This document shows positions 1,474 through 17,017 of a stretch of 64,000 bases of DNA, in pieces. The stretch comes from Vreelandella neptunia (GTDB lineage Bacteria; Pseudomonadota; Gammaproteobacteria; Pseudomonadales; Halomonadaceae), in NCBI RefSeq assembly GCF_034479615.1, contig NZ_CP140255.1, positions 3,782,001 to 3,846,000 of the forward strand. The letters run 5' to 3'. Both the position numbers and the translations under genes were made by a program. The stretch's first letter is position 1. Every line of letters begins with the position of its first letter. The notes under the pieces are model-generated. The model did no database searches and was not told the DNA's origin. It was given only the letters and a program-made list of their open reading frames with translations.

Positions 1474-2415
1474 ATGGGCGTTCTCGGCGATAACTGGTTT
1501 CTAGACGTGCGACTAAAGTTGCGGCATTTTCAACTTTTTTTGGCGCTGGAAGAGCAGCGCAACATGCATCGTGCAGCGAATCAGCTCAATATGAGCCAAC
1601 CCGCCGCGTCAAAGCTATTGAGTGATCTGGAAGCCCACCTGGGAATTCGGCTTTTTGATCGCCACCCCCGCGGGCTAACGCCCAACTGGTACGGCGAAAT
1701 TATGATTCGCCACGCGCACAGCATGCTTTCAGCGCTACGCCACACCGGTGAGGAACTGAATGCTCTCGGGGCGGGCAGTGCTGGCACGGTAGCCGTCGGC
1801 ACGGTAATGGCCCCGGCGGTTACGCTGCTCACTAGCGCTATCGAGCGAGTGCACCGCGACCGGCCAGGGTTAAAAATCAGCGTTGATGTGGATGTAAGTA
1901 AAGTGCTGGTACCGCGCCTACTGGAGGGCGAGCTGGATTTCGCGATTACTCGTATACCCTCAGGCATCGATACCGAGCGCTTTATCTTCGAGGAAATTGG
2001 CGAGGAAGAACTCTGCTTTGTGTGCCGCCAAGGACATCCATTAGCCGATAAACAAACACTGAGCCTTGCTGATATGGCGGGCTTCCCTTGGTCACTGCAG
2101 CCCGCTGGCGCGTTGATGCGCCAGCGGGTAGATAGTCTATTTCTTCACCATAAGGTCGTGCCGCCCGGCCAGATCGTCGATACCGCGGATCTACTGTTAT
2201 CGCTGGCGCTGGTGGATAAATCCGACACCATCACAGTAACTACCCGGGAAGCCGCCGACCTGCTGTGCCACCCGCAGCGCTTTCATCTATTGCCCTTCAG
2301 CGAGACGCTGAGCGTTCAGCCCTATGGGCTGGTGAGTTTGCGCCACCAACGCCTCTCACCTGGTGCCGCTGCGTTAATGAGTACCTTGCGAGAAGTGATT
2401 GCTCAGTCCAGTTAA
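1474..2415 (+). CDS. LysR-family transcriptional regulator
   Basis: A 313-residue LysR regulator. The winged helix-turn-helix is at about residues 15-75 (LRHFQLFLALEEQ, then AANQLNMSQPAASKLLSDLE and LFDRHPRGLTP), followed by a periplasmic-binding-protein-like effector domain. The TPNWYGEIMIRHA stretch resembles the GbpR/PcaQ-type subgroup, which often senses sugars or aromatic acids; the ligand here is unknown. The ATG at 1474 has AAGG eight bases upstream. It is divergent from the exported epimerase and overlaps the convergent dehydratase gene by 4 bases. By position it is the best candidate to regulate the epimerase, and possibly the dehydratase/TRAP genes. Confidence 0.85.
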   Translation: MGVLGDNWFLDVRLKLRHFQLFLALEEQRNMHRAANQLNMSQPAASKLLSDLEAHLGIRLFDRHPRGLTPNWYGEIMIRHAHSMLSALRHTGEELNALGAGSAGTVAVGTVMAPAVTLLTSAIERVHRDRPGLKISVDVDVSKVLVPRLLEGELDFAITRIPSGIDTERFIFEEIGEEELCFVCRQGHPLADKQTLSLADMAGFPWSLQPAGALMRQRVDSLFLHHKVVPPGQIVDTADLLLSLALVDKSDTITVTTREAADLLCHPQRFHLLPFSETLSVQPYGLVSLRHQRLSPGAAALMSTLREVIAQSS

Positions 2416-4157
2416 TGCGAATGACGCGGCACGTCGGACCCCCGGCAGCCGACCAGGAAGTCAAAGTCGCAGCCTTCATCCGCCTGGAGCACCCGCTCGA
2501 TATACAGCTGGCGATAGCCGCCCTGGCTGGCGATCAGCGTCGAGGCGGCGGTGGGGTCGCTTTCGGCCAGACGCGAGGCCAGTTCTTCATCGCTGATCTC
2601 CAGATGCAGGCCGCCGCTGGAGCAGTCGAGTTCGATCCAGTCGCCGTTGCGTACCGCCGCTAGCGGGCCGCCGGCGGCGGCTTCGGGGGCTACGTGCAGC
2701 ACTACGGTGCCGTAGGCGGTGCCGCTCATACGCGCATCGGAAATACGCACCATGTCGGTAATCCCCTGGGCGAGGATCTTGGGCGGCAGGCCCATGTTGC
2801 CTACCTCTGCCATGCCGTGATAACCGCGGGGGCCGCAGTGTTTCATGACCAGGATGTCGTTGGCTTCCACATCCAAATCCGGGTCGTTGATGCGTGCTTT
2901 GTAATCGTCGAAGTCTTCAAATACCACTGCGCGACCGCGATGCTGCATCAGCTCGGCGGTCGCCGCCGAGGGCTTGAGCACGGCGCCGTTGGGGGCCAGA
3001 TTACCGCGCACTACACAGATGCCGCCGTCTGCGGTTAGGGGGTTGTCCAGCGGGCGAATGACTTCATCGTTGTACAGTGGGGCGTCCTGAACGTTCTCCC
3101 AAAGTGTTTTGCCGTTGACGGTGAGTGCGTCCTTGAAGGGCAGCCGGTCAGCTTCACCCAGGCGCCTGAGTACCGCCGGTAGGCCTCCAGCGTAGTAGAA
3201 CTCTTCCATCAAAAAGCGCCCGGAGGGCTGCAGGTCGACCACCGTGGGGGTACCGCGCCCGACGCGGCTCCAGTCGTCCAGGGTCAGCTCGACGCCGATA
3301 CGCCCAGCAATGGCCTTGAGGTGAATCACCGCGTTGGTGGAGCCGCCAATCGCCGCGTTGGTGCGAATGGCGTTATCGAAGGCTTCCTTGGTGAGGATCT
3401 TGGACAGCCGCAGGTCTTCGTTGACCATCTCGACAATGCGGTTACCCGATAAATGGGCCAGCACGTAGCGGCGGGAGTCCACCGCGGGAATCGCCGCATT
3501 GTGGGGCAGCGAGGTACCCAGCGATTCAGCCATACAGGCCATGGTGGAGGCGGTGCCCATGGTGTTGCAGGTACCGGCGGAGCGGGACATGCCTGCCTCG
3601 GCGGCCATAAAGTCGTGCAGCGAAATCTCACCCGCTTTGACCTGCTCGGAGAGCTTCCACACCACGGTACCGGAGCCAATATCCTTGCCCTTGTGCTTGC
3701 CGTTGAGCATCGGCCCGCCAGTGACCACGATGGTGGGGATATCGCAGCTTGCCGCGCCCATCAGCAGCGCCGGGGTGGTTTTATCGCAGCCCACCAGCAG
3801 TACCACGCCATCCATGGGGTTGCCGCGAATGGCTTCTTCCACGTCCATGCTGGCCAGGTTGCGGGTGAACATGGCCGTGGGACGCAGGTTGGATTCGCCG
3901 TTGGAAAACACCGGAAACTCCACCGGATAGCCGCCCGCCTCCAGGATGCCCTGCTTCACGTGTTCCGCCAATTTGCGGAAGTGGGCGTTGCAGGGCGTCA
4001 GCTCCGACCAGGTGTTGCAGATACCGATGATCGGCTTGCCCTGGAACTCATGGTCGGGAATCCCCTGGTTTTTCATCCAACTACGGTACATAAAACCGTT
4101 CTTATCGGCCGTACCAAACCATTCAGCACTGCGCAGCGGACGTTGACGTTGGCCCAT
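2412..4157 (-). CDS. araC: L-arabinonate dehydratase-type IlvD/Edd enzyme
   Basis: Dehydrates an aldonate to its 2-keto-3-deoxy acid with a [2Fe-2S] cluster and Mg2+. The 581 residues match the IlvD/Edd family over their length. Candidate cluster cysteines are Cys56 (SELTPCN), Cys124 (VGCDKTTPA) and Cys197 (GTCNTMGTA), the spacing used by sugar-acid dehydratases. Opening motifs such as NGFMYRSWMKNQGIPDHEF and the ending CDFDFLVGCRG...PRHSH are as I remember them from the Azospirillum L-arabinonate dehydratase group, which supports that substrate. AAGGAG lies seven bases before the ATG. It is transcribed divergently from a TRAP operon across a shared operator. The symbol follows the Azospirillum name and is not the AraC regulator. 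Galactonate is a possible alternative substrate. Confidence 0.85.
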   Translation of the reverse strand: MGQRQRPLRSAEWFGTADKNGFMYRSWMKNQGIPDHEFQGKPIIGICNTWSELTPCNAHFRKLAEHVKQGILEAGGYPVEFPVFSNGESNLRPTAMFTRNLASMDVEEAIRGNPMDGVVLLVGCDKTTPALLMGAASCDIPTIVVTGGPMLNGKHKGKDIGSGTVVWKLSEQVKAGEISLHDFMAAEAGMSRSAGTCNTMGTASTMACMAESLGTSLPHNAAIPAVDSRRYVLAHLSGNRIVEMVNEDLRLSKILTKEAFDNAIRTNAAIGGSTNAVIHLKAIAGRIGVELTLDDWSRVGRGTPTVVDLQPSGRFLMEEFYYAGGLPAVLRRLGEADRLPFKDALTVNGKTLWENVQDAPLYNDEVIRPLDNPLTADGGICVVRGNLAPNGAVLKPSAATAELMQHRGRAVVFEDFDDYKARINDPDLDVEANDILVMKHCGPRGYHGMAEVGNMGLPPKILAQGITDMVRISDARMSGTAYGTVVLHVAPEAAAGGPLAAVRNGDWIELDCSSGGLHLEISDEELASRLAESDPTAASTLIASQGGYRQLYIERVLQADEGCDFDFLVGCRGSDVPRHSH

Positions 4158-4265: not shown

Positions 4266-4309
4266 CATACAAAAGTATATGTTGAACAATTGCTCTTAAT
4301 GTTCAACAT
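4266..4309. promoter_or_regulatory. Operator cluster shared with the 14.7 kb promoter
   Basis: Positions 4266-4288 are identical over 23 bases to 14713-14735. The element contains ATAC-AAAA-GTAT (4267-4278) and ATGTTGAACA (4279-4288). A second palindrome, ATGTTCAACAT, lies at 4299-4309, so the two palindrome centres are 20 bases apart, about two helical turns. It sits between the divergent araC-type dehydratase and the TRAP operon. The likely binder is the FadR-type GntR regulator encoded at 10999-11769; that link is inferred. Confidence 0.7.
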
Positions 4310-4394
4310 TACCCTTCCACACGGGTTATTGGCCCGTTGCATCACACCCTTAACCACCACGCTCTTCACAACAACAAGCTTGAGGAATAGTGCC

Positions 4395-5414
4395 ATGCTC
4401 AAATCGAAATACAGTTCAATACTCACCGGTTCCGTACTACTGCTAGGTCTCTCCGCGGCCCAGGCAGCTGAGTACGAATGGAAATTTCAAGCGTCAGAAA
4501 CCTCGGGCGAACCCAGCTTTAAGATCAAGCAGGAGTGGGCTGAGAAAATCACGGCAATGACCGATGGTCGTGTCGAGATCGAGGTAATGCCGATTAATTC
4601 AGTGGTGGGCCCCACCGAAACGCTGACAGCCGTTAGTGCCGGCATCTTGCAAGGCCACATGACTGATCCCAGCTACTTCTCCGGCCAGGATCCCGCCTTC
4701 GGTATGCTCGGCAATCTTGTCGGCGCGTGGCAAAACCCCTATGACTTCCTTGAATACATGAAGTACGGCGGCGGTGAAGAGCTCTACAACGAACTGGTCG
4801 AGCCATACGGTGCGCATTTGATCAGTGCGGCGACCTTCCCATTGGAGTCTGTGCCTTCCACGGTCCCCATCGAATCCATCGCTGATTTTGAAGGGCTAAA
4901 AATCCGTGCTCCCCAAGGTATGGTCTACAACATCTTCGAGCGCATTGGCGCCACGCCTGTCAACCTGCCGGGCTCTGAGGTGTATACCGGTCTGGAAAAA
5001 GGCGTGATTGATGCCGCGGACTCCACTGTGCTCTCGAACAACGACGCTATGGGTCTGCACGCTTTCGCCCCCTACCCGCTCTATCCTGGCTTCCACTCCA
5101 TGCCCATGATCGCTGTGTCGATCAACAAAGACATCTGGGATGGCTTGCCCGAGGAGCTACAGACGACCCTAAATACCGCTTTTGATGGCATGGCCTACGA
5201 CCTGATCGCCCGGCTCAAGGAGCAGGATATTGAGACCCTGCAACGGCTTCAGGATGACCCAGATGTTCACCCCTTCAACTTGCCTGAAGAAGAGCGTCAG
5301 AAATTCCGCATCGCGGCTGAGCAGGAGTGGCAAGAGTGGGCGGGTGAAAATGAAATGACCCAGAAGGTTTATGATTCCGCGACCGCCTTTTTGCGCTCAC
5401 GCAATCTGCTTTAA
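4395..5414 (+). CDS. dctP: TRAP transporter substrate-binding protein (DctP)
   Basis: Periplasmic receptor of a TRAP importer. An upstream in-frame ATG at 4227 would add 56 residues ahead of the signal peptide and run through the operator. The ATG at 4395 is preferred: it has GAGG about eight bases upstream and begins directly with MLKSKYSSILTGSVLLL...AQA, a clean signal peptide. The mature protein (about 315 residues) carries the family signature DFEGLKIRAPQGM, with the Arg that binds substrate carboxylate, and GLEKGVIDAADSTVLSN. It looks closest to the TakP-like branch that works with larger membrane subunits. dctQ and dctM follow after a strong hairpin. Ligand is probably a sugar acid such as arabinonate or galactonate (inference). 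Confidence 0.88.
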   Translation: MLKSKYSSILTGSVLLLGLSAAQAAEYEWKFQASETSGEPSFKIKQEWAEKITAMTDGRVEIEVMPINSVVGPTETLTAVSAGILQGHMTDPSYFSGQDPAFGMLGNLVGAWQNPYDFLEYMKYGGGEELYNELVEPYGAHLISAATFPLESVPSTVPIESIADFEGLKIRAPQGMVYNIFERIGATPVNLPGSEVYTGLEKGVIDAADSTVLSNNDAMGLHAFAPYPLYPGFHSMPMIAVSINKDIWDGLPEELQTTLNTAFDGMAYDLIARLKEQDIETLQRLQDDPDVHPFNLPEEERQKFRIAAEQEWQEWAGENEMTQKVYDSATAFLRSRNLL

Positions 5415-5451
5415 CGCTCTGCTCTCAACGTTGCTTCATTAACCTAACCAA

Positions 5452-5483
5452 CGCATCGCTCGGGAAGCATCCCGAGCGATGCG
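5452..5483 (+). other. Strong hairpin between dctP and dctQ
   Basis: A 14-base perfect inverted repeat with loop AGCA (arms 5452-5465 and 5470-5483). No T-run follows, so it is more likely a 3' stabiliser or RNA processing site than a full terminator. Such hairpins commonly raise the level of a binding protein relative to its membrane subunits. Confidence 0.7.
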
Positions 5484-5497
5484 CGTAGAGTCGCGCC

Positions 5498-6103
5498 ATG
5501 TCTCAAAAAACACCTGACAATCAATACCGTTCCCCACCCACCCATGATCTTCCTGAGATCCTCGAAACGGTGGAGGAGATCGCACCTGAACGTAATGCGT
5601 TAGACCGCCTGGTGGCACGGGGTGGCCGCGCCGTTTCCTGGTTGGTGCTGGTAGCGATGGGCATCAGCGTCATCGAGGTATTCATGCGTTACGGGTTCAA
5701 TAACCCCACCTCCTGGGTTCACGAAACCGTGGTATTTCTGATCGCCGTTATCTTTGTACTGGGTGGCCCTGCGGCCATGGCGCGCAATAGCCATATTCGC
5801 GTCAAGGTGCTGTACGACAGCGCCGGCCCCCGCTTGAAATGCTGGATGGATCGTTTCAACGATCTGCTCACCCTGATTTTTTGCCTGACAATGAGTTACG
5901 CCGCTTTTCATATGTTTTGGGGAGCGTCACATAACCCGCTTGGCGAATGGTCGCTGGAGCGCTCCGGCACCTCCTGGAATCCACCTTTTCCGGCCATGGT
6001 CAAGGGCATGATTCTGTTTGCCCTGACGTTGATGGCACTGCAGGCCACACTGCATCTTTGGCAATCGATTAAGGCGAAACCCCGCTCCGAGGAGGCGCGC
6101 TGA
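5498..6103 (+). CDS. dctQ: TRAP transporter small membrane subunit (DctQ)
   Basis: Small integral membrane subunit of the importer whose receptor is encoded just upstream. The 201 residues have an acidic cytoplasmic N-terminus of about 40 residues, then four predicted helices (about 45-65, 78-98, 118-142, 165-190). The FMRYGFNNPTSWVHETVVFL segment is typical of DctQ. It is longer than the usual 160-180 residues, in line with the TakP-like subgroup. The ribosome site is weak (AGAG). Its stop overlaps the dctM start (TGATG type overlap at 6101-6105), indicating translational coupling. Confidence 0.87.
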   Translation: MSQKTPDNQYRSPPTHDLPEILETVEEIAPERNALDRLVARGGRAVSWLVLVAMGISVIEVFMRYGFNNPTSWVHETVVFLIAVIFVLGGPAAMARNSHIRVKVLYDSAGPRLKCWMDRFNDLLTLIFCLTMSYAAFHMFWGASHNPLGEWSLERSGTSWNPPFPAMVKGMILFALTLMALQATLHLWQSIKAKPRSEEAR

Positions 6104-7404
6104 TGGATATTTCAACCGCTACGATCCTCATGGTCGGGGCGATTTTCGCGCTGCTGGTCACTGGTCTACCGCTGGCGTTTATCACTGGTTTGGTGGCCAT
6201 GGCCTTCACCTTCGGCTGGTTCGGCGAGGCGGCACTGCCGCTGGTCACCAGCCGGGTCTATGGGTTTATCACCGAGTATTCGCTGGTGGCGGTGCCCATG
6301 TTCGTATTGATGGCATCACTGCTGGATCGCTCCGGCATCGCCAAAGACCTGTTCAACGCCATGCGCGTCTTCGCCGGTCGCCTGCCAGGTGGCGTGGCGG
6401 TGCAGACCATCGTCGTGGCGTTCTTCCTGGCCGCCCTTTCGGGCATCATCGGTGGTGAAATCGTGCTGCTGGGGATTCTGGCGCTGCCGCAAATGCTGCG
6501 CCTGGGCTATGACAAGCACCTATCCATCGGGGTGGTGTGTGCCGGTGGCGCCTTGGGCACCATGATGCCGCCCTCCATCGTGCTGATTATCTACGGCCTG
6601 ATCGCCAGCGTATCGATTGCAGACCTGTTTGCTGCGGCCGTAACCCCAGCAGTCATTCTAATGGGCTCCTACATTGCCTATGTACTGGTGCGCTGCCTGA
6701 GGAATCCCGCGCTAGGCCCTCCGTTGGATAAAGACACTGAGGATAACCCTTTCGCCAGTAAGCTGGAGGCAGTGAAAGCCATTCTGCTGCCCGGCCTGAT
6801 TGCCTTTTTAGTACTGGGCACTATCTACGGTGGTATCGCCTCGGTCACCGAAGCAGCCGCCATGGGTGTCTTCGGCGTACTGCTGGCGACCATTGTGCGC
6901 GGCGAGTTTTCTCCCGGCATGCTGCACCATAGTCTGGGTCAGACCATGAACACCTGCGGCATGATCATTTGGATCGGCATAGGTGCCGCCGCCCTGGTGG
7001 GCGTCTATAACTTGATGGGCGGCAATCGCTTTGTTTCGAGCCTGATTCTCGGGCTCGACGTCGCGCCGATTGTGATCATACTTGTGATGATGGCGATCAT
7101 GCTGGTGCTCGGGCTGTTCCTCGACTGGATCGGGATCGCCATGTTGGCCTTGCCCATCTTTCTGCCTATCGTTATTCAGCTCGGTTTCGACCCGATCTGG
7201 TTCGGCATTCTCTTCGCCGTGAATATGCAGGTATCGTTCCTGTCGCCGCCCTTCGGGCCCGCCGCCTTCTACCTTAAAAGCGTGGCACCGCCGGATATCA
7301 GCCTGAAGGATATCTACCTGTCCGTACTGCCCTTTATGGCCATTCAGCTGTGCATACTCGCGGCGCTATTGATGTGGCCGCAACTGGCCATTTGGCCGCT
7401 CTGA
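6103..7404 (+). CDS. dctM: TRAP transporter large membrane subunit (DctM)
   Basis: The Na+-coupled translocating subunit of the TRAP importer, 433 residues with about 12-13 hydrophobic segments. Family marks include VPMFVLMASLLDRSGIAKDLF (about 64-84), SGIIGGEIVLLGILALPQM, and GALGTMMPPSIVLIIYG, which lies in a re-entrant loop. A second repeat half has TEAAAMGVFGVLLA and FLSPPFGPAAFYLK. Gene order dctP-dctQ-dctM followed by catabolic enzymes argues that the imported compound is processed by the AraD1-type protein and the aldehyde dehydrogenase downstream. It may also serve the orphan binding protein at 14889. Confidence 0.93.
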   Translation: MDISTATILMVGAIFALLVTGLPLAFITGLVAMAFTFGWFGEAALPLVTSRVYGFITEYSLVAVPMFVLMASLLDRSGIAKDLFNAMRVFAGRLPGGVAVQTIVVAFFLAALSGIIGGEIVLLGILALPQMLRLGYDKHLSIGVVCAGGALGTMMPPSIVLIIYGLIASVSIADLFAAAVTPAVILMGSYIAYVLVRCLRNPALGPPLDKDTEDNPFASKLEAVKAILLPGLIAFLVLGTIYGGIASVTEAAAMGVFGVLLATIVRGEFSPGMLHHSLGQTMNTCGMIIWIGIGAAALVGVYNLMGGNRFVSSLILGLDVAPIVIILVMMAIMLVLGLFLDWIGIAMLALPIFLPIVIQLGFDPIWFGILFAVNMQVSFLSPPFGPAAFYLKSVAPPDISLKDIYLSVLPFMAIQLCILAALLMWPQLAIWPL

Positions 7405-7437
7405 TAACGACAAAACTGGCTTCATGAGGAGACCACC

Positions 7438-8424
7438 ATGCGACTGATTCAGTGTGACCACCAGGGCCAGGTTCGCGCCGCTCTGGTCGAGAGTGAAGAG
7501 CAGGTAAGACTGCTCGACTGTGATACCTACACCCTGGCCAACCGGGCCATTAGCGCCGGTAAGCCGCTTAGCGACATGCTGACGGAAGCGCTGACCGACA
7601 CGCGCCTGGATTATCAAGCGCTGGTCGATGCCAAGCAGCTGTTGCCTCCATTAACGCATACTGACCCGGCCCACTGCCTGGTCACCGGCACCGGCCTTAC
7701 CCACTTGGGCAGTGCCGACACGCGCTCGGCGATGCATGCTAAAGCCCAAGCTGCTGAAGAAGACATGACCGACTCCATGCGCATGTTCAAGCTCGGCGTG
7801 GAGGGCGGCAAACCCGACGCAGGCCAGCTTGGTGCCCAGCCTGAGTGGTTCTATAAGGGTGACGGCCAGTGCGTGGTGGCGCCTGAAGCCGATATCCCCT
7901 CACCTGCCTTTGCCGAGGATGCAGGCGAGGAGCCGGAGCTGGCCGGGCTCTACGTGATTGGCGATGATGGCCAACCCTGGCGAGTCGGCTACGCTCTAGG
8001 TAATGAGTTTTCTGACCACGTGACCGAGCGCTTCAACTACCTGTGGCTAGCCCATTCCAAGCTACGCGCCTGCAGCTTTGGTCCCGAGCTTTTGATCGGC
8101 GAACTGCCAGAAAATCTCGAAGGCACCAGCCGAATCCAGCGTAGTGGCGAAACACTGTGGGAAAAACCCTTTTTGACCGGTGAGGCCAATATGGCTCACA
8201 GTCTGGCCAATCTGGAGTATCACCATTTTAAATACCCGGGTTTCCGACGCCCCGGCGATGTGCATGTACACTTTTTCGGCACCGCGACGCTGAGCTTCGC
8301 CGACGGCATTAAGGTGCGCGAAGGCGATCGTTTTGAGATCAAAATCAATGAATTTGGCCGCGCACTGCGCAACCCGCTACGGTTGGAAACAGACGCTCGG
8401 GCCATCAGCGTAAAATCGCTTTAA
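7438..8424 (+). CDS. araD1: AraD1-type FAH-family dehydratase
   Basis: Member of the fumarylacetoacetate hydrolase superfamily, in the subgroup also called GguC or AraD1. It is expected to dehydrate 2-keto-3-deoxy-L-arabinonate to 2-oxoglutarate semialdehyde, replacing the DHDPS-like AraD. The 328 residues show [21 protein letters not shown] (about 81-100), [13 protein letters not shown], and the metal-binding region [11 protein letters not shown] followed by [16 protein letters not shown]. The C-terminal [16 protein letters not shown] is typical. GAGGAG precedes the ATG. It lies between the transporter and the semialdehyde dehydrogenase, the order expected for this route. The reaction is assigned from subgroup and context; galactose-derived acids are an alternative. 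Confidence 0.8.
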
Positions 8425-8455
8425 CACCCGCATTTTTACACCAGCAGGAGGTTGC

Positions 8456-10030
8456 ATGACTCTGGAAGGCAAACTACTTATTGGCCAGCAGGCCATTAGC
8501 GGCCAACAGGCTGACATTCATGCGGTTAATCCCGCTACCGGCGAGACACTGTCTCCCGCCTATCCCGGCGGCAGCAAGACAGAGGTCGAACAGGCCTGCG
8601 CATTAGCCGAGACGGCTTTTGATAGCTATCGCGAGACCTCCCTAGAGGCACGAGCTAGCTTTCTTGAAACCATTGCCAGCGAGATCGAAGGGATCGGCGA
8701 TGAGCTGATTGAGCGTGCTATGGCCGAAACCGGCCTGCCCCGCCCGCGCTTAGAGGGCGAACGTGGACGTACCTGTGGCCAGCTGCGGCTGTTCGCCTCG
8801 GTAGTGCGCGCCGGTGAGTGGCTGGATGTTCGTATCGACCCTGCCATGCCTGATCGTGAACCGCTGCCCCGCGCCGACCTGCGCCAGCGCCATATTGGCC
8901 TGGGCCCGGTGGCGGTGTTTGGCGCCAGCAACTTCCCGCTCGCCTTTAGTGTGGCCGGTGGCGATACTGCCTCCGCACTGGCGGCTGGCTGCCCGGTTGT
9001 GGTCAAGGGCCACTCTGCCCATCCCGGAACGTCTGAGCTGGTGGGTCGTGCCATTCAACGCGCCGTTGCCAAGTGCAACCTGCCTGAAGGCGTTTTCTCA
9101 CTACTGTTTGGCTCAGGCCGCGACATCGGCCAGGCACTGGTCGCTGACCCGCGTATCCAGGCGGTGGGCTTCACCGGTTCACGCAATGGTGGCACGGCAC
9201 TCATGGCCACTGCCCAGGCGCGGCCACAGCCAATCCCCGTTTACGCCGAGATGAGCTCGATCAATCCGGTCTTTCTGCTGCCGGAAGCGCTCAAGGCACG
9301 CGGTAAAGCGATTGCCGAAGGGTTCGTCGGCTCTCTCAACATGGGCGCCGGGCAGTTCTGCACCAACCCTGGGTTGGTGATTGCGATTCAGGGCCCGGAG
9401 CTGGATGCCTTCGTTGAAGCGGCCGGTGAAGCGGTCAAGGGCAGCGCTGCGCAAACCATGCTGACGCCAGGCATTCACGACGCTTACCAACAGGGTGTTG
9501 ATCGGCTCGCCAACCACGCCAAGGTCACCGAGATCGCACGTGGTCAAGCGGGTGAAACAGCGAACCCTTGCCAAGCGGGACTGTTCGTTACCCAGGCCGA
9601 GGCATTCCTCAACGACCCCGCCCTTCAAGAAGAGGTGTTTGGTTCAACTTCGTTGGTGATCGCCTGTGCGGACGCCCAGGAAGTGGCGCGTGTGGCTGCT
9701 CAGTTGGAAGGCCAGCTCACCATTACGCTACAGATGGATGACGGTGACTTGGCGACAGCCAAGCAACTACTGCCGACGCTGGAGCGCAAGGCGGGCCGTA
9801 TTCTAGCCAACGGCTGGCCGACGGGTGTAGAAGTGTGCCACGCCATGGTACATGGCGGCCCCTTCCCAGCAACCTCGGATTCACGCACGACCTCAGTAGG
9901 TAGCGCGGCCATTTTCCGCTTCCTGCGCCCGGTATGCTACCAAGCGCTGCCGGAAGGATTACTGCCCGAAGCGATCCGTGACGGTAACCCTTGTGGAGTA
10001 TCACGCTTGGTCGATGGCAAGCGTGAATAA
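8456..10030 (+). CDS. 2-oxoglutarate semialdehyde dehydrogenase (NADP+ type)
   Basis: Oxidises 2-oxoglutarate semialdehyde (2,5-dioxopentanoate) to 2-oxoglutarate, the last step of non-phosphorylating pentose pathways, feeding the TCA cycle. The 524-residue ALDH has Asn159 (GASNFP), Glu265 (YAEMSSINP) and nucleophile Cys302 ([12 protein letters not shown]). The GQFCTNPG motif and length match the NADP+-dependent KGSADH group rather than betaine-aldehyde types. AGGAGG precedes the start. It is the last gene of the plus-strand TRAP-araD1 operon, and only 6 bases separate it from the convergent Gfo/Idh gene. Confidence 0.88.
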
Positions 10031-10036
10031 CTGGCG

Positions 10037-10963
10037 TTACTCGATAAAGGCGTCGGTGGTTTCACGATGACCGTATAGAAACGCATCGGCGACCTGGCGC
10101 AGCGGGGCAACATCCACCTCGCTGCGCTTGTTTGCGATCAGCTCGGCAAAGCGCGCATATAAACCTTGATACTCGCGCTCCTCCTCTTCAATGATCAGTT
10201 CATCGTCGATGACCAATCGACAGCCACCCTGGGTGAGACTCAAGCGGCTGCCATCGCTATCGATATGCATATCCCAGGTCGGCGGGCCACTTTGTAGGAA
10301 GTCGAAATCGGCCTCGATCGCCGCCCCTTCTGGGTCGGTAAAGGATAACTTTGCCGCAATTGGGGTTTGCGCATTGCTCGGCACCAGCAGCCGCGCCTGT
10401 TGCAGAAAGAACGGTTGGGGCAGGATTTCAGTCGCAATTGACAGCGCATTGATACCGGGATCAAAAACTCCCATGCCACCGGGCTGCCAGATCCACGCCT
10501 GGCCTGGATGCCATACCCGCACATCCTCCTTCCACTCGATCTCTACCCGCTGTACCTGCCGTTCGGCAAGCCACTGCTGGGCTTGGGCCACGCCGGGGGC
10601 AAACCGCGAGTGCCAGGCTGCAAATAGGCTAACGCCCTGCTCTTTGGCACAGGCAATCAAGTCCTCCACTTCGCTTAACGTTGCCCCCGGTGGTTTCTCA
10701 AGCAGCACGTGCTTGCCTCGCATCAGCGCCGCCCGCGCCTGAGAATAGCGCAGATGTGTCGGCGTGCAGATTGAGACAGCGGTGATTTCAGGGCGGGCGT
10801 CTAGCATCGCTTCCAGGTCTTGATAGGCGGGTAGATCCGGCAGCGAGGCGTAGGGATCCGCCGAGGCGACAAGATGGCAGTTCGGGGTGGCGGCTATGGC
10901 CGGGAGGTGCTGGTCGCGGACGATTTTGCCCACGCCCACTAAGCCTAGGTTGAAGTCAGACAT
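10037..10963 (-). CDS. Gfo/Idh/MocA sugar 1-dehydrogenase
   Basis: Probable NAD(P)+-dependent oxidation of an aldose at C1 to its lactone (D-galactose, L-arabinose or related sugars). The start at 10963 is preferred over one 24 bases upstream because AAAGGCAAG precedes it and the protein then begins MSDFNLGLVGVGKI, directly on the Rossmann fold. The 308 residues carry GVGKIVRDQH (about 9-18), SICTPTHLRY and the conserved HVLLEKPPGATL with the family Lys. FDPGINALSI probably holds the catalytic acid. The sequence resembles galactose/arabinose 1-dehydrogenases of bacteria. It is last in the minus-strand operon xylD-eamA-gntR-gfo and gives that pathway its first step. Confidence 0.8.
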   Translation of the reverse strand: MSDFNLGLVGVGKIVRDQHLPAIAATPNCHLVASADPYASLPDLPAYQDLEAMLDARPEITAVSICTPTHLRYSQARAALMRGKHVLLEKPPGATLSEVEDLIACAKEQGVSLFAAWHSRFAPGVAQAQQWLAERQVQRVEIEWKEDVRVWHPGQAWIWQPGGMGVFDPGINALSIATEILPQPFFLQQARLLVPSNAQTPIAAKLSFTDPEGAAIEADFDFLQSGPPTWDMHIDSDGSRLSLTQGGCRLVIDDELIIEEEEREYQGLYARFAELIANKRSEVDVAPLRQVADAFLYGHRETTDAFIE

Positions 10964-10998
10964 ACGCTTGCCTTTGTTATTTACCATTGAAAATGGGG

Positions 10999-11769
10999 TC
11001 AGGAGGTGGTGTCGGGCAACTCAACGCTGCGCCCTAATGAACTGACGCTGTGCTCAAGCCCCAACGCGGCGGCGGTTCCCGCCAACACCGCTTGGGACGC
11101 TAAAAACGCCTCCCGAGGGCGGCGTAGCCGAATGCTCTCCATCAGTTGGCGGTGACGTTCCAGACTCTCTTCAGGATCCGGGGCGTTCTCGTTGGACATG
11201 GAGATCAGCATATAGATGGAGGGCCGCAGGATATGCGATAGCTGCGCCCAGACGATATTGTGGGTTGCCTTGAAAATCGCTTCGTGAAAGGCGACATCGC
11301 ACTCGCTGTGCAGCCGCCGCTCCTCTTCGCAGGTGGCGTTGCGCAGATTTTGCCCCAGCCCTTCGAACGCCTCTTCGATAGCAACCAAATCCCGCGCCTT
11401 GGCGCGTTTGGCGGCGGTCATCGCCACATAGGGCTCAACGTCCAGGCGGAAGGCGAGGATTTCACGCTGAATGTCGGGGTTGGGCGCTGCGTAGCGGGTC
11501 AACCAGTCGGTCACCTGGGCGTCGAGAATATGCCACTCTGAATATTCACGCACCCTGGATCCGTGGCCGGAGATACGCTCGATAATACCGGCATCGACCA
11601 GTTGGCGCAGATCACTGCGCACCGCTGAGCGGTTAATGGCGAATCGCTCGCATAGATCCATTTCCCGAGGCACGAGATCACCGGGGTGGTAGCGCCCACC
11701 GAAGATCTCCTCGGCAAGATGTTCGGCGATACTGGGGCGAGCTGCTGTCTTGCTGGGAGATGACGTCAC
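10999..11769 (-). CDS. FadR-type GntR regulator of the pentonate genes
   Basis: A 256-residue GntR-family repressor with an N-terminal winged helix (about 14-78: GDLVPREMDLCERFAINRSAVRSDLRQLVDAGII) and an all-helical FCD effector domain. The latter shows CDVAFHEAIFKATHN and a later LERHRQLMESI, which should give the metal-binding His residues. It begins with GTG and has no clear ribosome site, so it is probably translated by coupling to eamA 31 bases upstream. Embedded in the xylD operon, it is the best candidate to bind the 23-base element found at 4266 and 14713. Effector is likely a pathway intermediate (inference). Confidence 0.83.
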   Translation of the reverse strand: MTSSPSKTAARPSIAEHLAEEIFGGRYHPGDLVPREMDLCERFAINRSAVRSDLRQLVDAGIIERISGHGSRVREYSEWHILDAQVTDWLTRYAAPNPDIQREILAFRLDVEPYVAMTAAKRAKARDLVAIEEAFEGLGQNLRNATCEEERRLHSECDVAFHEAIFKATHNIVWAQLSHILRPSIYMLISMSNENAPDPEESLERHRQLMESIRLRRPREAFLASQAVLAGTAAALGLEHSVSSLGRSVELPDTTS

Positions 11770-11800
11770 TTCGATAAGACCCTATTTCGATTCCTGTCAA

Positions 11801-12745
11801 TCATAACGTACTTGACCGGTCTACTGTTACCGATGGCGAAGGTTCGAGTCCGGCGCGCATCCTTAGCTCTAAGCGCCGCTCATAGAGACCCTTGGCACCC
11901 AAAGTACCCAACACCAGCACGCCGCCTACCATGGCCATCGGCGCGGGCTGCTCCGCCAGGATCCACCAGGCCAAAAGCGTGCCCAGCACCACTTCCAGTA
12001 GTATCAGTAGGCCCACCTCAGCGGAGGGCAGGTAGAGTGGTCCGCGCTGCAGCAGCGTGACCCCGCAGGGCACAATAATCAGGCAGAGCAGGATCACCAC
12101 AGCCAGCTCATTAACAGCGGGCAGTGCGGGTTCGCTCCCCGCCAGCCAAAACAGTCCAGCAGTGCTGCCAACAATCAGGCCGTTAAACACCAGCATTGGG
12201 CTCATATCCACGCCCGGACGCGTGCGGCAGAGGGTAAAGTTAATCGCCAGGGTTGTTGCCGCCATTAAGGCGAAAGCGTTGCCGATCCAGGAACCGGCCC
12301 CTGCATCATCGAGAGCGATCATGGCGACACCCGCCATACACAGCAATATCGCCAGCCAGGTGCGCCTGGGCAGGCGCTCCTTGAGGATGATCCAGGAGAG
12401 CACGGCCGCGATTAACGGCGAACTGGCAAGGATCATCAACACGTTGCCCGCCTTGGTGTACTGGTTGCCCAGCACAAAGCCACAGGTGGTCAGGCTGAAC
12501 AGTAGCGCGACGGCGATGCCCGTCCAGCCGCAGCGCCGATAGGCCGCCAGGATGCCGCGCCCATAGCGCAGCAGGGCAATCAGCAAAAATCCCAGCCCAG
12601 ACAGAAAGCCGCGCCACATCAAAATTTCTGCATCTGGCAGGTCGGCTACCTTAATCAGCAAGGCATCCGGCGCCATAATCAGCGCCCCACCACCGGTCAA
12701 CAGCAGGCCCTGCTGGCGATGGGATAAGCTACTCCAACGACTCAT
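11801..12745 (-). CDS. EamA-family membrane transporter
   Basis: A 314-residue DMT-superfamily protein with ten predicted helices in two EamA repeats. Features include GFLSGLGFLLIALL (about 45-60), KAGNVLMILASSPLIAAVLSWIILKERLPRRTW (end of repeat one) and EVGLLILLEVVLGTLLAWWILAEQP (repeat two). EamA proteins mostly export metabolites such as amino acids or sugars. Here it lies between the xylonate-type dehydratase and the GntR regulator, so it may export or exchange a sugar-acid intermediate, but the sequence does not show which. The start follows GAGG at a rather long 12-base spacing. Confidence 0.8.
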   Translation of the reverse strand: MSRWSSLSHRQQGLLLTGGGALIMAPDALLIKVADLPDAEILMWRGFLSGLGFLLIALLRYGRGILAAYRRCGWTGIAVALLFSLTTCGFVLGNQYTKAGNVLMILASSPLIAAVLSWIILKERLPRRTWLAILLCMAGVAMIALDDAGAGSWIGNAFALMAATTLAINFTLCRTRPGVDMSPMLVFNGLIVGSTAGLFWLAGSEPALPAVNELAVVILLCLIIVPCGVTLLQRGPLYLPSAEVGLLILLEVVLGTLLAWWILAEQPAPMAMVGGVLVLGTLGAKGLYERRLELRMRAGLEPSPSVTVDRSSTL

Positions 12746-12761
12746 CTAAGTGCTCGCCTCT

Positions 12762-14564
12762 TTAGTGATTGTCTCTGGGCGGATGCTGGCGAGCCACATC
12801 GCGATACTTGGTGGCGGGCTCCAAGGTCATACCGCGATCCAGCGGTTCGACCATACTGCGCTGGATCTCTTGCCAAGGCGTCTGGTGACCAGGGTAGCGG
12901 TACCCGCCCTGCTGGGTTAAACGCTCGCGGCGCGCTTCCAGCTCACTCGTTTCGATCAGCAGCTGCACCTCGCCGCGCTTGAGGTCAACCCGCAGCCGGT
13001 CGCCGCTTTCCAGCAGCGCCAAGCCGCCCCCCGTGGCCGCTTCTGGGGAGGCATTAAGAATCGACGGCGAGCCGGAAGTGCCCGACTGGCGGCCATCGCC
13101 CAGGCAAGGCAGCGACTCAATACCCTGTTTGATCAGCGCCTCCGGCGGCTGCATATTGACCACTTCGGCCCCACCGGGGTGCCCCACCGGGCCTGCGCCG
13201 CGCATGACCAGAATGGTGCGTGCATCAATGTTCAGCGCTGGGTCATCAATACGCGCGTGGTAATCCTCGGAGCCGTCGAAGACCACCACCTTGCCTTCAA
13301 AGGCTTCCGGGTCGTTGGGATCATTCAGGAAGCGCTCACGGAAGTCCCGGGAGATCACGCTGGTTTTCATCAGCGCCGAGTCGAATAGATTGCCCTTGAG
13401 ATTGAGGAAGCCCGCATGATCCACCAAAGGGTCGTTATAGCGACAAATCACATCGGGGTCTTGGGTTTCGCGGCCCTGCAGATTATCGCCTATGGAGCGG
13501 CCATTGACCGTCAGCGCATCGCCGTGGAGCTTACCCGCCGACTGTAGCTCGTGAAGGATCGCGGGAACGCCACCGGCGCGATAGAACTCTTCGCACAGGA
13601 AGGCACCGGCAGGCATCACGTTGGCCAGCAGCGGGATTTCATGGCCCAGGCGCTGCCAGTCGTCGTTATTCAGTTCAATACCCGCATGGCGAGCAATGGC
13701 ATTAATGTGCACCGGCGCGTTAGAAGAGCCGCCCAATGCCGAGCAGGCCACAATGGCGTTCTCAAACGCTTCGCGGGTCAGAATATCCAGCGGGCGCAGG
13801 TCTTCCCAGACCATATCGACAATCCGTGTACCGGTGTCGTAGGCCACCATCGCGCGCTCTTTATAGGGTGCGGGTATCACCGCCGAACCTGGCAGGCTCA
13901 TGCCCAGCACTTCGGCCATGGAATTCATGGTGGAGGCGGTGCCCATGGTATTGCAGTGGCCAATCGAAGGCGCCGAATCGCTGGCACGGGAGAGAAACTC
14001 TGCGTAGTCGATATCGCCCGCTGCCAAGCGCTTGCGCAACTCCCAGATGATGGTGCCCGAGCCAACCCGCTCCGCACCGCGCCAGCCGTTGAGCATCGGC
14101 CCGCCGGACAGCACGATGGCGGGAATATTCACCGTTGCCGCCGCCATCAGCGCGGCAGGGGTGGTTTTATCGCAGCCGGTGGTTAATACCACGCCGTCCA
14201 GCGGGTAACCGTGCAGCACCTCCACGATGCCTAAATAAGCAAGATTACGATCCAGCGCCGCCGTGGGTCGCCGCACGTTCTCATGAATAGGATGCATGGG
14301 AAATTCAAACGGCACACCGCCCGCAGCGCGAATACCGTCTTTTACCCGCTTAACCAAGTCGATGTGGTGGCGGTTGCACGGGGTTAAATCAGAGCCGGAT
14401 TGGCAGATACCAATAATTGGCTTACCGCTGGTCAGCTCATCCAGGGTAATGCCGTAATTAAGGTAGCGCTCAATACACAGCGCAGTGGTTCCCGGGTGGT
14501 CGGGGTTATCGAACCAGTAACGTGAACGTAACTGCTCAGGCGTTATTCGCTGAAAATTGGCCAT
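12762..14564 (-). CDS. xylD: D-xylonate dehydratase-type IlvD/Edd enzyme
   Basis: Converts D-xylonate (or a related pentonate) to 2-keto-3-deoxy-xylonate. The 600-residue protein opens with [27 protein letters not shown] and ends [16 protein letters not shown], both very like the Caulobacter XylD sequence as I recall it. Candidate [2Fe-2S] ligands are Cys63 (SDLTPCN), Cys131 ([10 protein letters not shown]) and Cys204 (GHCNTMGTA). It belongs to a different subgroup from the dehydratase at 2412. GGAG lies eight bases before the ATG. It heads the operon xylD-eamA-gntR-gfo and is divergent from an orphan TRAP receptor. Rhizobium L-arabinonate dehydratase is also close, so the exact pentonate is uncertain. 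Confidence 0.85.
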
Positions 14565-14888
14565 GGTTCCGCTCCACGCCTAAAGTAAATATAAAAGTCA
14601 GTAGGCGCGTAGGCACTGAGACCGCCCCACCGACAATATCGATTAAGTAAGTTCCCTAAAGTGTAGGGGAGAGTTGGCATGACGGTACGCTTTCTTACCA
14701 GCAACGTCGATACATACAAAAGTATATGTTGAACATATAATGAAAACATTAGACATTCATCTAAGGGTTGCGGCGCTCACACCTCTTGAAGCAAGTGCCG
14801 CTTACACAACAACAATTAACCACGCTGCAGTTCGCTTGGAAGACACCCTTAGCGAAGCGGTCTGTAGCTCGCCAGGAGAATGACGACT
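14565..14888. promoter_or_regulatory. Divergent promoter region with shared 23-base operator
   Basis: This 324-base gap holds no gene. Positions 14713-14735 repeat exactly the 23 bases at 4266-4288, including ATAC-AAAA-GTAT. The palindrome ATGTTGAACAT is complete here (14726-14736). A TATAAT -10 hexamer for the dctP direction lies at 14736-14741, directly abutting the element, as expected for a repressor site. The rest of the gap shows no repeat or hairpin that I can support. The leader of dctP is about 140 bases long. Confidence 0.7.
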
Positions 14889-15965
14889 ATGCACCACCTT
14901 TGGAAACGTACTCTATTAATAACCGGCGCTACTCTGCTCAGCTCAGGTATCGCCTATGCGCAAACGCCTGATCTATCTGACCCGCCAGCGATTGATGGCG
15001 ATATAGTGGGTGACCACGGCAGCGTCACCCTGCGTATGGGGCTAGGCTTAGCGGAAAGTTCGCCCCAGTACATCTCCAGCCAGTTCTTCGCGGATATTCT
15101 CAACCAGCGCAGCGAAGGCCGCATCAGCGTTAATATCTTCCCTAACAGCCAGCTTGGCGACGATGTGCAGATGATGGAAATGCTGCAGACCGGCACGCTG
15201 GATATGACTTATCCCTCCTCTTCACCTGCTACCGGCTACGTTGAGGAGCTGGCAGTTTTCGACCTCCCCTTCTTGCTACCTACCCGGGAAGCGGCTATTG
15301 AGGCCATGCGTAGCGATGCTGCTCAGGAAATGCTAGACGCCTTCGATGGTAGCGGCATCAAAGCCTTAGCATTTTCTGAGAATGGCTTTCGTCAGCTCTC
15401 CAACAGTGCTCGAGAAGTCTCCTCTCCAGAGGATGTGGCGGGACTAGACGTTCGCGGTCTATCTATTCGCACCATGGAAAACCCGGTGCACTTAGCTATT
15501 TGGGAAGCACTGGGCGCCAACCCGACCCCAATGGCATTTGGTGAGCTGTTCTCCGCCATGGAACAAGGCGTGGTCGATGGCCAGGAGAACCCTTGGAGCA
15601 CCATTCTGACCTCCAATTTCTATGAAGTGCAGGACTACGGCTCCGAAACCCGCCATGTTTACACCCCCTTCATCAAGATGATCTCTCAGCGTACCTGGGA
15701 TCGCCTCGACCCTGAGTATCAGGAGCTTGTTCAGGAAGCGGCGCTGCAGGCTGCCGATTATGAAATCCAGCTTTCCAGTGAGTACGACGACTGGGCACGG
15801 GATCAGCTTGAAGAGCGTGGTATGCAAATCACCCGCCTTGATGACGAGCAAATTGCCGCCTTCCAGGAAGCCGTAGAGCCGGTTTACGAAGAGTGGGCCC
15901 CGCGTATTGGTGAAGATCTAGTGGCTGAGTTTCAGCGCATTGCTGAGTCGTCAATGACGGACTGA
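14889..15965 (+). CDS. Orphan TRAP substrate-binding protein (DctP)
   Basis: Periplasmic TRAP receptor without adjacent dctQ or dctM. A start at 14880 is possible, but its AGGAG is only one base away; the ATG at 14889 gives about nine bases. The 358 residues start with signal peptide MHHLWKRTLLITGATLLSSGIAYAQ, then a DctP fold with GLDVRGLSIRTMENPVHLAIWE (substrate-binding Arg) and the signature AMEQGVVDGQENPWSTI. A UUCG-capped terminator follows at once, so the gene is monocistronic. It shares its operator with the 4.4 kb TRAP operon. It may therefore feed that transporter's membrane subunits, or act in sensing; this is inference. Confidence 0.85.
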   Translation: MHHLWKRTLLITGATLLSSGIAYAQTPDLSDPPAIDGDIVGDHGSVTLRMGLGLAESSPQYISSQFFADILNQRSEGRISVNIFPNSQLGDDVQMMEMLQTGTLDMTYPSSSPATGYVEELAVFDLPFLLPTREAAIEAMRSDAAQEMLDAFDGSGIKALAFSENGFRQLSNSAREVSSPEDVAGLDVRGLSIRTMENPVHLAIWEALGANPTPMAFGELFSAMEQGVVDGQENPWSTILTSNFYEVQDYGSETRHVYTPFIKMISQRTWDRLDPEYQELVQEAALQAADYEIQLSSEYDDWARDQLEERGMQITRLDDEQIAAFQEAVEPVYEEWAPRIGEDLVAEFQRIAESSMTD

Positions 15966-16030
15966 TCACTTCAATGCTGGAACCTCTCCCGTTATCAAGC
16001 ATTTAAAATAAACTCATTCATGAGTATTTA

Positions 16031-16058
16031 AAGGGACGGCTTCGGCCGTCCCTTTTGC
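16031..16058 (+). terminator. Intrinsic terminator after the orphan dctP
   Basis: Ten-base perfect stem AAGGGACGGC / GCCGTCCCTT closed by a TTCG tetraloop (16041-16044), whose distal arm ends in CCTTTTG. It ends the dctP transcript and isolates it from the SDR gene at 16268. Confidence 0.85.
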
Positions 16059-16124
16059 GTTTCATGATGACTTGCAGAATATTGGCAACTGCCATCATCT
16101 AGGCCATACTTAGACAAACATCAT

Positions 16125-16160
16125 CCTAGCATCCTGTCATACCATATGACTTTCGTCATA
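16125..16160. promoter_or_regulatory. GTCATA operator cluster upstream of the fuconate genes
   Basis: In the 302-base gap before the SDR gene, three half-sites stand in a row: GTCATA (16136-16141), TATGAC (16145-16150) and GTCATA (16155-16160). The minus-strand reading of 16125-16144 is TGGTATGACAGGATGCTAGG. It closely matches elements at 25962-25981 and 29126-29145 that precede the threonate-type operon. The probable binder is the GntR regulator at 20859-21584. Apart from the terminator at 16031 and this cluster, I see nothing else in the gap. Confidence 0.6.
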
Positions 16161-16267
16161 AAGGTAATTACCGCCACTGACGCAGTGGCTAATGCAATAG
16201 ACCATCAAGGGGCGCTAATAGGATCAACAGCAGTACCGGATCAACAACAACCACACCGGGAACCGCC

Positions 16268-17017
16268 ATGCGACTTAAAGACAAGACGGCTCTAATTACC
16301 GCTGCAGGCCAAGGAATTGGCCGGGCTACGGCACTGCACTTTGCCGCAGAAGGCGCGCGGGTCATTGCCACAGACATCAACACCCAAAGCCTCGAAGAGC
16401 TGGCCGCGATACCTGGCATCAACACGCGCCAGCTCGATGTGCTGGATACCGCCGCCATTGACGCATTAGCCGCTGAGCTGGGCGCCGTCGACATCCTCTT
16501 CAACTGCGCTGGCTTTGTGGCCAACGGCTCGCTACTGGAAGGTAGCGACGACGACTGGGAGTTATCGCTATCACTCAATGTGATGGCGATGATGCGCATG
16601 ACGCGCGCCTTGCTGCCGGCCATGCTCAACAACGGCGGCGGCAGTATCATCAATATGGCTTCGGTGGCCTCAAGCCTCAAAGGCGTGCCCAACCGCTGCG
16701 CATACGGCACTACCAAGGCGGCGGTAATTGGCCTGACTAAATCAGTGGCCGCCGACTACATCGGGCAGGGAATTCGCTGCAACGCCATCTGCCCCGGCAC
16801 GGTGGACTCACCTTCGTTACGCCAGCGCATTGGCGAACAAGCCAAGCGACAGGGGCGCAAGGAGGGGGATGTCTACGCCGAGTTCATCGCCCGTCAGCCC
16901 CAGGGGCGACTGGGCAACCCTGAAGAAATTGCTGCCTTGGCCCTCTATTTAGCTGCCGATGAGTCTAGTTATACCACCGGTACCACCCAGATCATTGATG
17001 GTGGCTGGCTGATCTGA
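16268..17017 (+). CDS. SDR, 2-keto-3-deoxy-L-fuconate dehydrogenase type
   Basis: Expected to oxidise 2-keto-3-deoxy-L-fuconate at C4 to the 2,4-diketo acid with NAD+, in the non-phosphorylating L-fucose pathway. The 249-residue classical SDR has the cofactor motif TAAGQGIG (11-18), NCAG (79-82), Ser132/Ser135, and the catalytic pair Tyr146 and Lys150 (AYGTTK). The RCNAICPGTVDSPSLRQRI segment resembles the BDH2/fuconate-dehydrogenase branch, which supports the assignment. It starts the cluster SDR-FAH-ADH-UxaA and complements L-fuconate dehydratase at 30453. The same enzyme could process the D-arabinose analogue. Confidence 0.75.
   Translation: MRLKDKTALITAAGQGIGRATALHFAAEGARVIATDINTQSLEELAAIPGINTRQLDVLDTAAIDALAAELGAVDILFNCAGFVANGSLLEGSDDDWELSLSLNVMAMMRMTRALLPAMLNNGGGSIINMASVASSLKGVPNRCAYGTTKAAVIGLTKSVAADYIGQGIRCNAICPGTVDSPSLRQRIGEQAKRQGRKEGDVYAEFIARQPQGRLGNPEEIAALALYLAADESSYTTGTTQIIDGGWLI

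Follow-up and report, generated by a model that had tools for sequence, protein, structure and literature searches.

We examine a stretch of 64,000 nucleotides from the genome of the salt-loving bacterium Vreelandella neptunia (assembly GCF_034479615.1, contig NZ_CP140255.1, positions 3,782,001-3,846,000, forward strand; "the window" below), in which an identical 23-base sequence, CATACAAAAGTATATGTTGAACA, lies on the plus strand at 4266-4288 (site A) and again at 14713-14735 (site B). A sequence-only reading had reported both copies and had placed each between a minus-strand aldonate dehydratase gene and a plus-strand TRAP receptor gene. The sequence bears out the first point, and gene coordinates and family matches the second: each copy sits between a minus-strand IlvD/Edd-type dehydratase gene and a plus-strand DctP receptor gene. 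The motif is not scattered through unrelated regions of its own genome; with up to three mismatches allowed, these two sites are the only ones in all 4.95 Mb. Within the window ATACNNNNGTATATGTTSAACA, again with up to three mismatches, matches exactly the two copies, and 100 shuffles gave a mean of 0.01 matches and none with two. Two such sites per 64 kb are far beyond chance.

On the plus-strand side of site A lie the genes for the TRAP receptor DctP1 (4395-5414), DctQ1 (5498-6103), DctM1 (6103-7404), GguC of the AraD1 family (7438-8424; 536.6 bits against a cut-off of 340) and an aldehyde dehydrogenase (8456-10030), a candidate alpha-ketoglutaric semialdehyde dehydrogenase that reaches no specific cut-off. 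On the other side is ilvD1 (2412-4157, minus), with L-arabinonate dehydratase as its best specific model (834.7 bits, below the cut-off of 882), followed by a gene for a PcaQ-like LysR regulator (1474-2415, plus), probably the published AraR. Lying on opposite strands, lysR and ilvD1 share four bases at their stop ends (2412-2415).

Site B faces, on the minus strand, a series of four genes: ilvD2 (12762-14564, an IlvD/Edd-family dehydratase), a DMT-type permease gene (11801-12745), gntR1 (10999-11769) and a gene for a Gfo/Idh/MocA oxidoreductase (10037-10987), a candidate sugar dehydrogenase, with the three enzyme and transport genes assigned by family matches. The intergenic gaps are only 16, 31 and 11 bases, and gntR1 is therefore probably transcribed from the region of site B. 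On the plus strand, also by family match, lies the TRAP receptor gene dctP2 (14880-15965). It has no dctQ or dctM directly behind it, with 302 bases to the next gene (window 14880-16268), and is an orphan receptor that keeps its operator; in five relatives (L066, L067, L068, L102 and L133) a dctM-like gene follows dctP2.

Four more minus-strand genes lie just left of the window, behind an epimerase gene, and encode a 331-residue product without a family match, AraG and AraH (both above their cut-offs) and a 581-residue dehydratase. The last shares 573 of 581 residues (99%) with IlvD1, which makes ilvD1 at site A a further copy of the dehydratase gene found in an araM-(F)GH operon. These near-identical genes stand about 8 kb apart (window 2412-4157 and G000:C1:3776569-3778314, or L153 1570-3315), and a recent duplication or conversion has apparently put one enzyme under two regulators.

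A three-part element with a fixed direction

The 23-mer makes up the left part of a longer element of 42 bases, AC-N-AAAGT-N-TATGTTGAACAW-N9-ATGTTCAACATT, composed of a half-box, a palindrome (O1) and a second palindrome (O2) centred 20 bp past the first. We predict a composite operator A at 4269-4310 (plus), upstream of dctP1-dctQ1-dctM1-gguC-aldh, with the AC-N-AAAGT half-box at 4269-4276 and O1, ATGTTGAACAA (GT-TGA-AC), at 4279-4289. The second palindrome that had been noted near 4.3 kb is its O2, an exact ATGTTCAACAT at 4299-4309. The predicted composite operator B (14716-14757, plus) lies between ilvD2 and dctP2, with the half-box at 14716-14723 and O1, ATGTTGAACAT, at 14726-14736 within a 17-bp dyad, TATATGTTGAACATATA; its O2 at 14746-14756 is degenerate (ACATTAGACAT, 4 of 11 positions mismatched) and is placed by a spacing that relatives keep. 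The half-boxes are drawn from the sequence and from column counts in relatives, both O1 palindromes (no strand, as for O2) from the sequence and a palindrome scan, and O1 at site A from column counts as well. By its position, operator B likely also controls the divergent ilvD2-DMT-gntR1-gfo series.

Inside the window the palindrome alone is weak evidence: ATGTTSAACAT with up to two mismatches occurs 16 times where 10.65 are expected. The exact 11-base palindrome is found at three places in the genome, and the third (G000:C1:3278424), inside a metal-ATPase-like open reading frame, we take as chance. A repeat search (seed 9, minimum length 12) returned nothing in either intergenic region.

To see how far the element extends, we compare 275 genomes of the family. 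The pattern ATACAAAAGTATATGTTSAACAW with up to three mismatches is present in 117 of them (its reversed control in 4), and the shorter, relaxed pattern AAAGTNTATGTTGWACWW with one mismatch in 155 (control in 8). From 122 distinct windows around sites, taken from part of the motif genomes, we align 85 that are less than 75% alike and find a conserved block from about -6 to +39 that stops sharply on either side. Its columns read AC-N-AAAGT-N-TATGTTGAACAW, nine free bases, ATGTTCAACATT, with GT-N3-AC in both palindromes and the AAAGT of the box nearly invariant (77 to 84 of 85 per column). The sequence-only reading had taken the left part for a dyad, ATAC-AAAA-GTAT; relatives show an asymmetric AC-N-AAAGT-N-T instead, and we reject an ATAC-N4-GTAT palindrome, its outer columns varying independently. 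Of 115 distinct sites, 54 have an exact O2 and 103 one with no more than three mismatches. The mean O2 match is 9.33 of 11 at a spacing of 20 and 1.3-4.8 at spacings of 15-19 and 21-29, which leaves 20 as the sole outlier among spacings 15-29.

Could the two copies be identical by chance, or through a recent duplication without function? This genome does have only two copies, but the same element stands at 113 distinct sites across genera with diverging flanks, and in the window the sequences flanking sites A and B seem unrelated by eye. This conservation refutes the idea, to which we attach a practically negligible likelihood.

The element also points one way. In a search with 32 proteins from the window, 105 of 113 distinct sites have a homologue within 450 bases downstream, always on the same strand (DctP2 at 42, DctP1 at 35, GguC at 14, an FAH-family gene at 11, others at 3); an opposite-strand downstream gene was found at none of the 113, and the downstream gene was not recognised at 8. 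At all 105 sites with a recognised gene the box is on the side away from it, and the median distance from the O1 centre to the extrapolated gene start is 100 bases for dctP1 and 151 for dctP2. Upstream neighbours are divergent at 90 sites, codirectional at 17 and not recognised at 6. As for the suggested motif scan of relatives upstream of dehydratase and dctP orthologues, the motif does stand at dctP-type genes, but the dehydratase/DctP pair is not needed: at L108, L111 and L115-L118 no ilvD1 adjoins, and the site lies between lysR and gguC or dctP1. Such sites indicate that the element goes with the uptake or catabolic gene, a dehydratase neighbour being common and not necessary.

This fixed direction raises the question of whether the right half is mainly a promoter, with TTGAAC (+11 to +16) and RACATT (+34 to +39) as weak -35 and -10 elements and O1 overlapping the -35. 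The 17-bp spacing is exact, and positions 35-38 are kept in 77-78 of 85 windows even where the left half of O2 is degenerate. Yet the putative -10 matches TATAAT at only 3 of 6 positions, with A at +39 in 21 of 85 windows, and a sigma-70 consensus scan finds no promoter in the window, either intergenic region included. G30 (76 of 85) and T31 (73 of 85) are also conserved, which argues for O2 as a GT-N3-AC site, and we regard the promoter reading as unlikely. The same scan bears on the TATAAT at 14736-14741, abutting the second 23-mer, to which attention had been drawn: it finds no promoter there, and by column counts the hexamer is not a conserved part of the element. A minus-strand -10 (TATACT) within the box, serving the divergent gene, is likewise unlikely; the box is also kept where the upstream neighbour runs in the same direction (17 of 113 sites).

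Two sites merit mention in their own right. In L089 (G170) two diverged copies, at 10496 and 14469, precede an IlvD2-like gene and an FAH-family gene, and one of them has GTTGTAC instead of GTTGAAC. In L099 (G266) many of the locus genes are in frame-shifted pieces and both operators are intact; with the genome 74% complete, these may be assembly errors.

GntR1 and LysR as candidate binders

Now we consider which protein goes with the element. We define a GntR1 orthologue by a match at E < 1e-100, plus one partial match, which gives 141 of the 275 genomes. The relaxed motif is found in 137 of these 141, versus 18 of the 134 without an orthologue; a GntR paralogue matching at 1e-60 to 1e-88 is present in 11 of these 18 genomes. 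The association survives stratification by genus: eight genera, together 232 of the 275 genomes, give a Mantel-Haenszel odds ratio of about 650. From 27 orthologue genomes without a first-pass match we inspected 16, of which 15 have an exact palindrome and 13 box plus O1 (up to four mismatches).

In 11 of these 16 loci (L084, L085, L086, L087, L088, L090, L091, L092, L093, L097 and L098) a lone exact ATGTTSAACAT lies just upstream of gntR1; neither the box (at most 4 of 7 positions matched) nor O2 (at most 5 of 11) was found there. These lone palindromes suggest that gntR1 may be autoregulated on its own where it does not follow ilvD2.

The neighbouring LysR (1474-2415) is the obvious competitor, as an activator of the transporter genes. 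LysR-type sites follow the rule T-N11-A, and TATGTTGAACATA formally fits it. Its gene is in the same cluster, and the relaxed motif occurs in 117 of the 124 genomes with LysR. The dependence this predicts is not what we see: among 33 genomes with GntR1 and no LysR homologue (E <= 1e-60), 32 keep the relaxed motif and 31 the longer one. Where LysR occurs without a GntR1 orthologue, 12 of 16 genomes have the relaxed motif; a GntR paralogue could bind it in 11 of these 12 (the twelfth, G245, is a broken assembly), and the longer pattern appears in only 1 of the 16. A different motif and a different target operon have also been assigned to LysR, as AraR (PMC5507952). Judged by co-occurrence LysR is an unlikely binder, and we consider this explanation very improbable.

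This comparison makes the GntR protein encoded at 10999-11769 the very probable binder; the sequence-only reading had picked it, and it remains the best candidate, also where LysR is absent. The assignment follows from co-occurrence. The protein has the domains of the FadR subfamily, an N-terminal GntR winged helix-turn-helix (HTH; PF00392, 51.3 bits, cut-off 27) and a C-terminal FCD domain (PF07729, 63.2 bits, cut-off 24.3), and such a protein would be expected at a GT-N3-AC operator. Both O1 and O2 contain GT-TSA-AC, and their ownership likewise rests on co-occurrence. Among aligned GntR1 homologues the recognition helix is nearly invariant.

Several observations weigh against this assignment. 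The Fisher p-values for co-occurrence ignore phylogeny. Three of the 141 orthologue genomes fit neither pattern: G085 shows no site across the 20 kb covered, the paired palindromes of G155 lack the box, and G111 has a diverged site. The 12 of 16 LysR genomes that carry the relaxed motif without a GntR1 orthologue weigh slightly against excluding LysR. No GntR homologue reaches E <= 1e-60 in seven of the motif genomes (G063, G074, G157, G160, G200, G223 and G245). We looked at three of them, G245, G063 and G200; the match in G200 looks like chance, and the G063 locus (L144, 4500-7400) has the operator, ilvD2 and the permease gene and no gntR1 homologue. Finally, compared by hand, the box matches the half-site at 3 of 7 positions, so that a second protein could own it.

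An argE-like open reading frame takes the place of gntR1 in that G063 locus. At E <= 1e-55 GntR1 is found in 6 of 369 genomes of the class, 3 of these outside the family, and a plasmid collection yields one record, Halomonas sp. PA16-9. One of the three, a 63%-identical GntR in another family (L147), has box plus O1 about 190 bp behind its gene; L149 and L150, the other two, show no box plus O1 in 3.7 kb. The g11 genome (L136, 8342-8379) has, near the gene of a 58%-identical GntR paralogue, a box-like AAGGT together with O1 and O2 in unchanged spacing; the operator may predate the split of the GntR paralogues.

A proposed operator model and its relation to known systems

The sequence itself, its conservation, spacing and direction, and the fact that it occurs together with GntR1 even where LysR is missing make it highly likely that each 23-mer forms the upstream portion of a composite operator serving the FadR-subfamily GntR encoded nearby (10999-11769), the AraR2 of earlier work. 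In this proposal one GntR1 dimer would read O1 (GT-TGA-AC) and another would occupy O2, on the same side of the helix and two turns further downstream. The AAAGT box is oriented like the left half-site and lies 8.5 bp outside the O1 centre; it could add a further half-site contact that would stabilise the complex or set its orientation. When bound, GntR1 would repress the TRAP, gguC and aldh genes; from the 14.7-kb site it would also repress the divergent ilvD2-DMT-gntR1-gfo series, and with it its own gene. Release would come when a sugar acid of the pathway, L-arabinonate or its 2-keto-3-deoxy product, occupies the FCD domain. Repression is assumed here from the habit of the subfamily and from the position near the promoter; GntR1 could also act as an activator.

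The direction of the element might instead come from a second factor, with GntR1 on O1 and O2 and another protein on AC-N-AAAGT. The box is asymmetric and nearly invariant, is absent from the 11 lone palindromes before gntR1 and is always promoter-distal (105 sites), all of which would suit such a division. However, extra half-boxes at 7-12 nucleotides from the centre are described for 13 FadR-subfamily groups (PMC4494728), and no other regulator is known to track the motif, LysR being the only one tested; sharing of the element by two proteins seems to us quite unlikely. If GntR1 alone owns all three parts, a tentative idea is that a directional operator lets one protein build two complexes: O1, box and O2 at transport and catabolic promoters, marked by the promoter-distal half-box, versus a single dimer at gntR1's own lone-palindrome promoter, perhaps for tight repression or activation of one class.

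How does this compare with known regulators? The best solved-structure sequence match of GntR1 is E. coli PDB 7c7e (E 1.1e-23), listed as a putative DNA-binding transcriptional regulator, which we take to be DgoR. DgoR, described as sensing galactonate, differs in its gene set and presumably in its sugar acid. Against the NCBIfam equivalogs LldR, PdhR, GlcC, NanR, UxuR and ExuR, GntR1 reached none (the best was LldR, 65.1 bits versus 311). E. coli NanR resembles it as a FadR-type protein on repeated GT units, GT recurring here at +4 and +10, but NanR reads direct repeats, aided by a 32-residue N-terminal extension, whereas the main sites of GntR1 are palindromes (PMC8012715). We find no such extension in GntR1, whose HTH match starts at residue 13.

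The closest general likeness is to FadR-subfamily operators, surveyed in 2015 as palindromes with GT and AC 3 nucleotides apart (PMC4494728). In that survey Arg at HTH residue 28 goes with G or C at the K of TKGT, avoiding A and T (PMC4494728); in aligned GntR1 homologues residue 28 is Met, Leu, Ile or Val, never Arg, and the base is T, in keeping with this rule. It also describes the extra half-boxes above as weak, leaving their function to experiment, and one class of divergons with paired sites at constant spacing (PMC4494728). Our element shares the A/T-rich GT-N3-AC palindrome, the extra half-site 7-12 nucleotides off and the double sites, and differs in that its half-site is ATGT rather than TKGT and its extra box is nearly invariant and promoter-distal rather than weak (PMC4494728). 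The box, 8.5 nucleotides from the O1 centre, is a strong example of an extra half-box, and 113 fixed-direction sites, together with sites with and without the box, offer a natural case for the role of such half-sites in GntR proteins.

The specific precedent is a 2017 prediction for the ara locus of Halomonas. It puts araD-araT-araR2-araA, araE, a TRAP transporter and a putative lactonase under the GntR protein AraR2, and assigns to the LysR, AraR, its own motif and the araMFGHCY operon (PMC5507952). The window repeats this arrangement: the GntR lies in a dehydratase-transporter-GntR-dehydrogenase operon with LysR and TRAP genes adjacent, araD-araT-araR2-araA corresponding to ilvD2-DMT-gntR1-gfo by order and family, and the araM-FGH-C operon is present just left of the window (PMC5507952). 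It departs from it in the 99%-identical second dehydratase copy at site A and in a second TRAP receptor, dctP2, with its own site (PMC5507952). The AraR2 motif itself sits in a supplementary table of that paper, and the likeness drawn here rests on gene order, not on motif letters (PMC5507952). Among the literature matches listed for the motif letter strings, none is on GntR or Halomonas by title or abstract. The sequence-only reading's "probable new regulon motif" therefore stands as the mark of a regulon of arabinonate-type genes and falls as to novelty, regulator and operons having been predicted in 2017 (PMC5507952); the regulon and regulator it named are right in outline. The passages on AraR2 in that paper do not mention the three-part layout, its fixed direction or its family-wide range (PMC5507952). 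What we add is this unusually regular operator layout, with its spacing, direction and range in the family, the case against LysR, and the lone palindromes before gntR1. Together these provide a compact, testable model of how Halomonas-type bacteria may control arabinonate use, and a promoter part that may respond to sugar acids.

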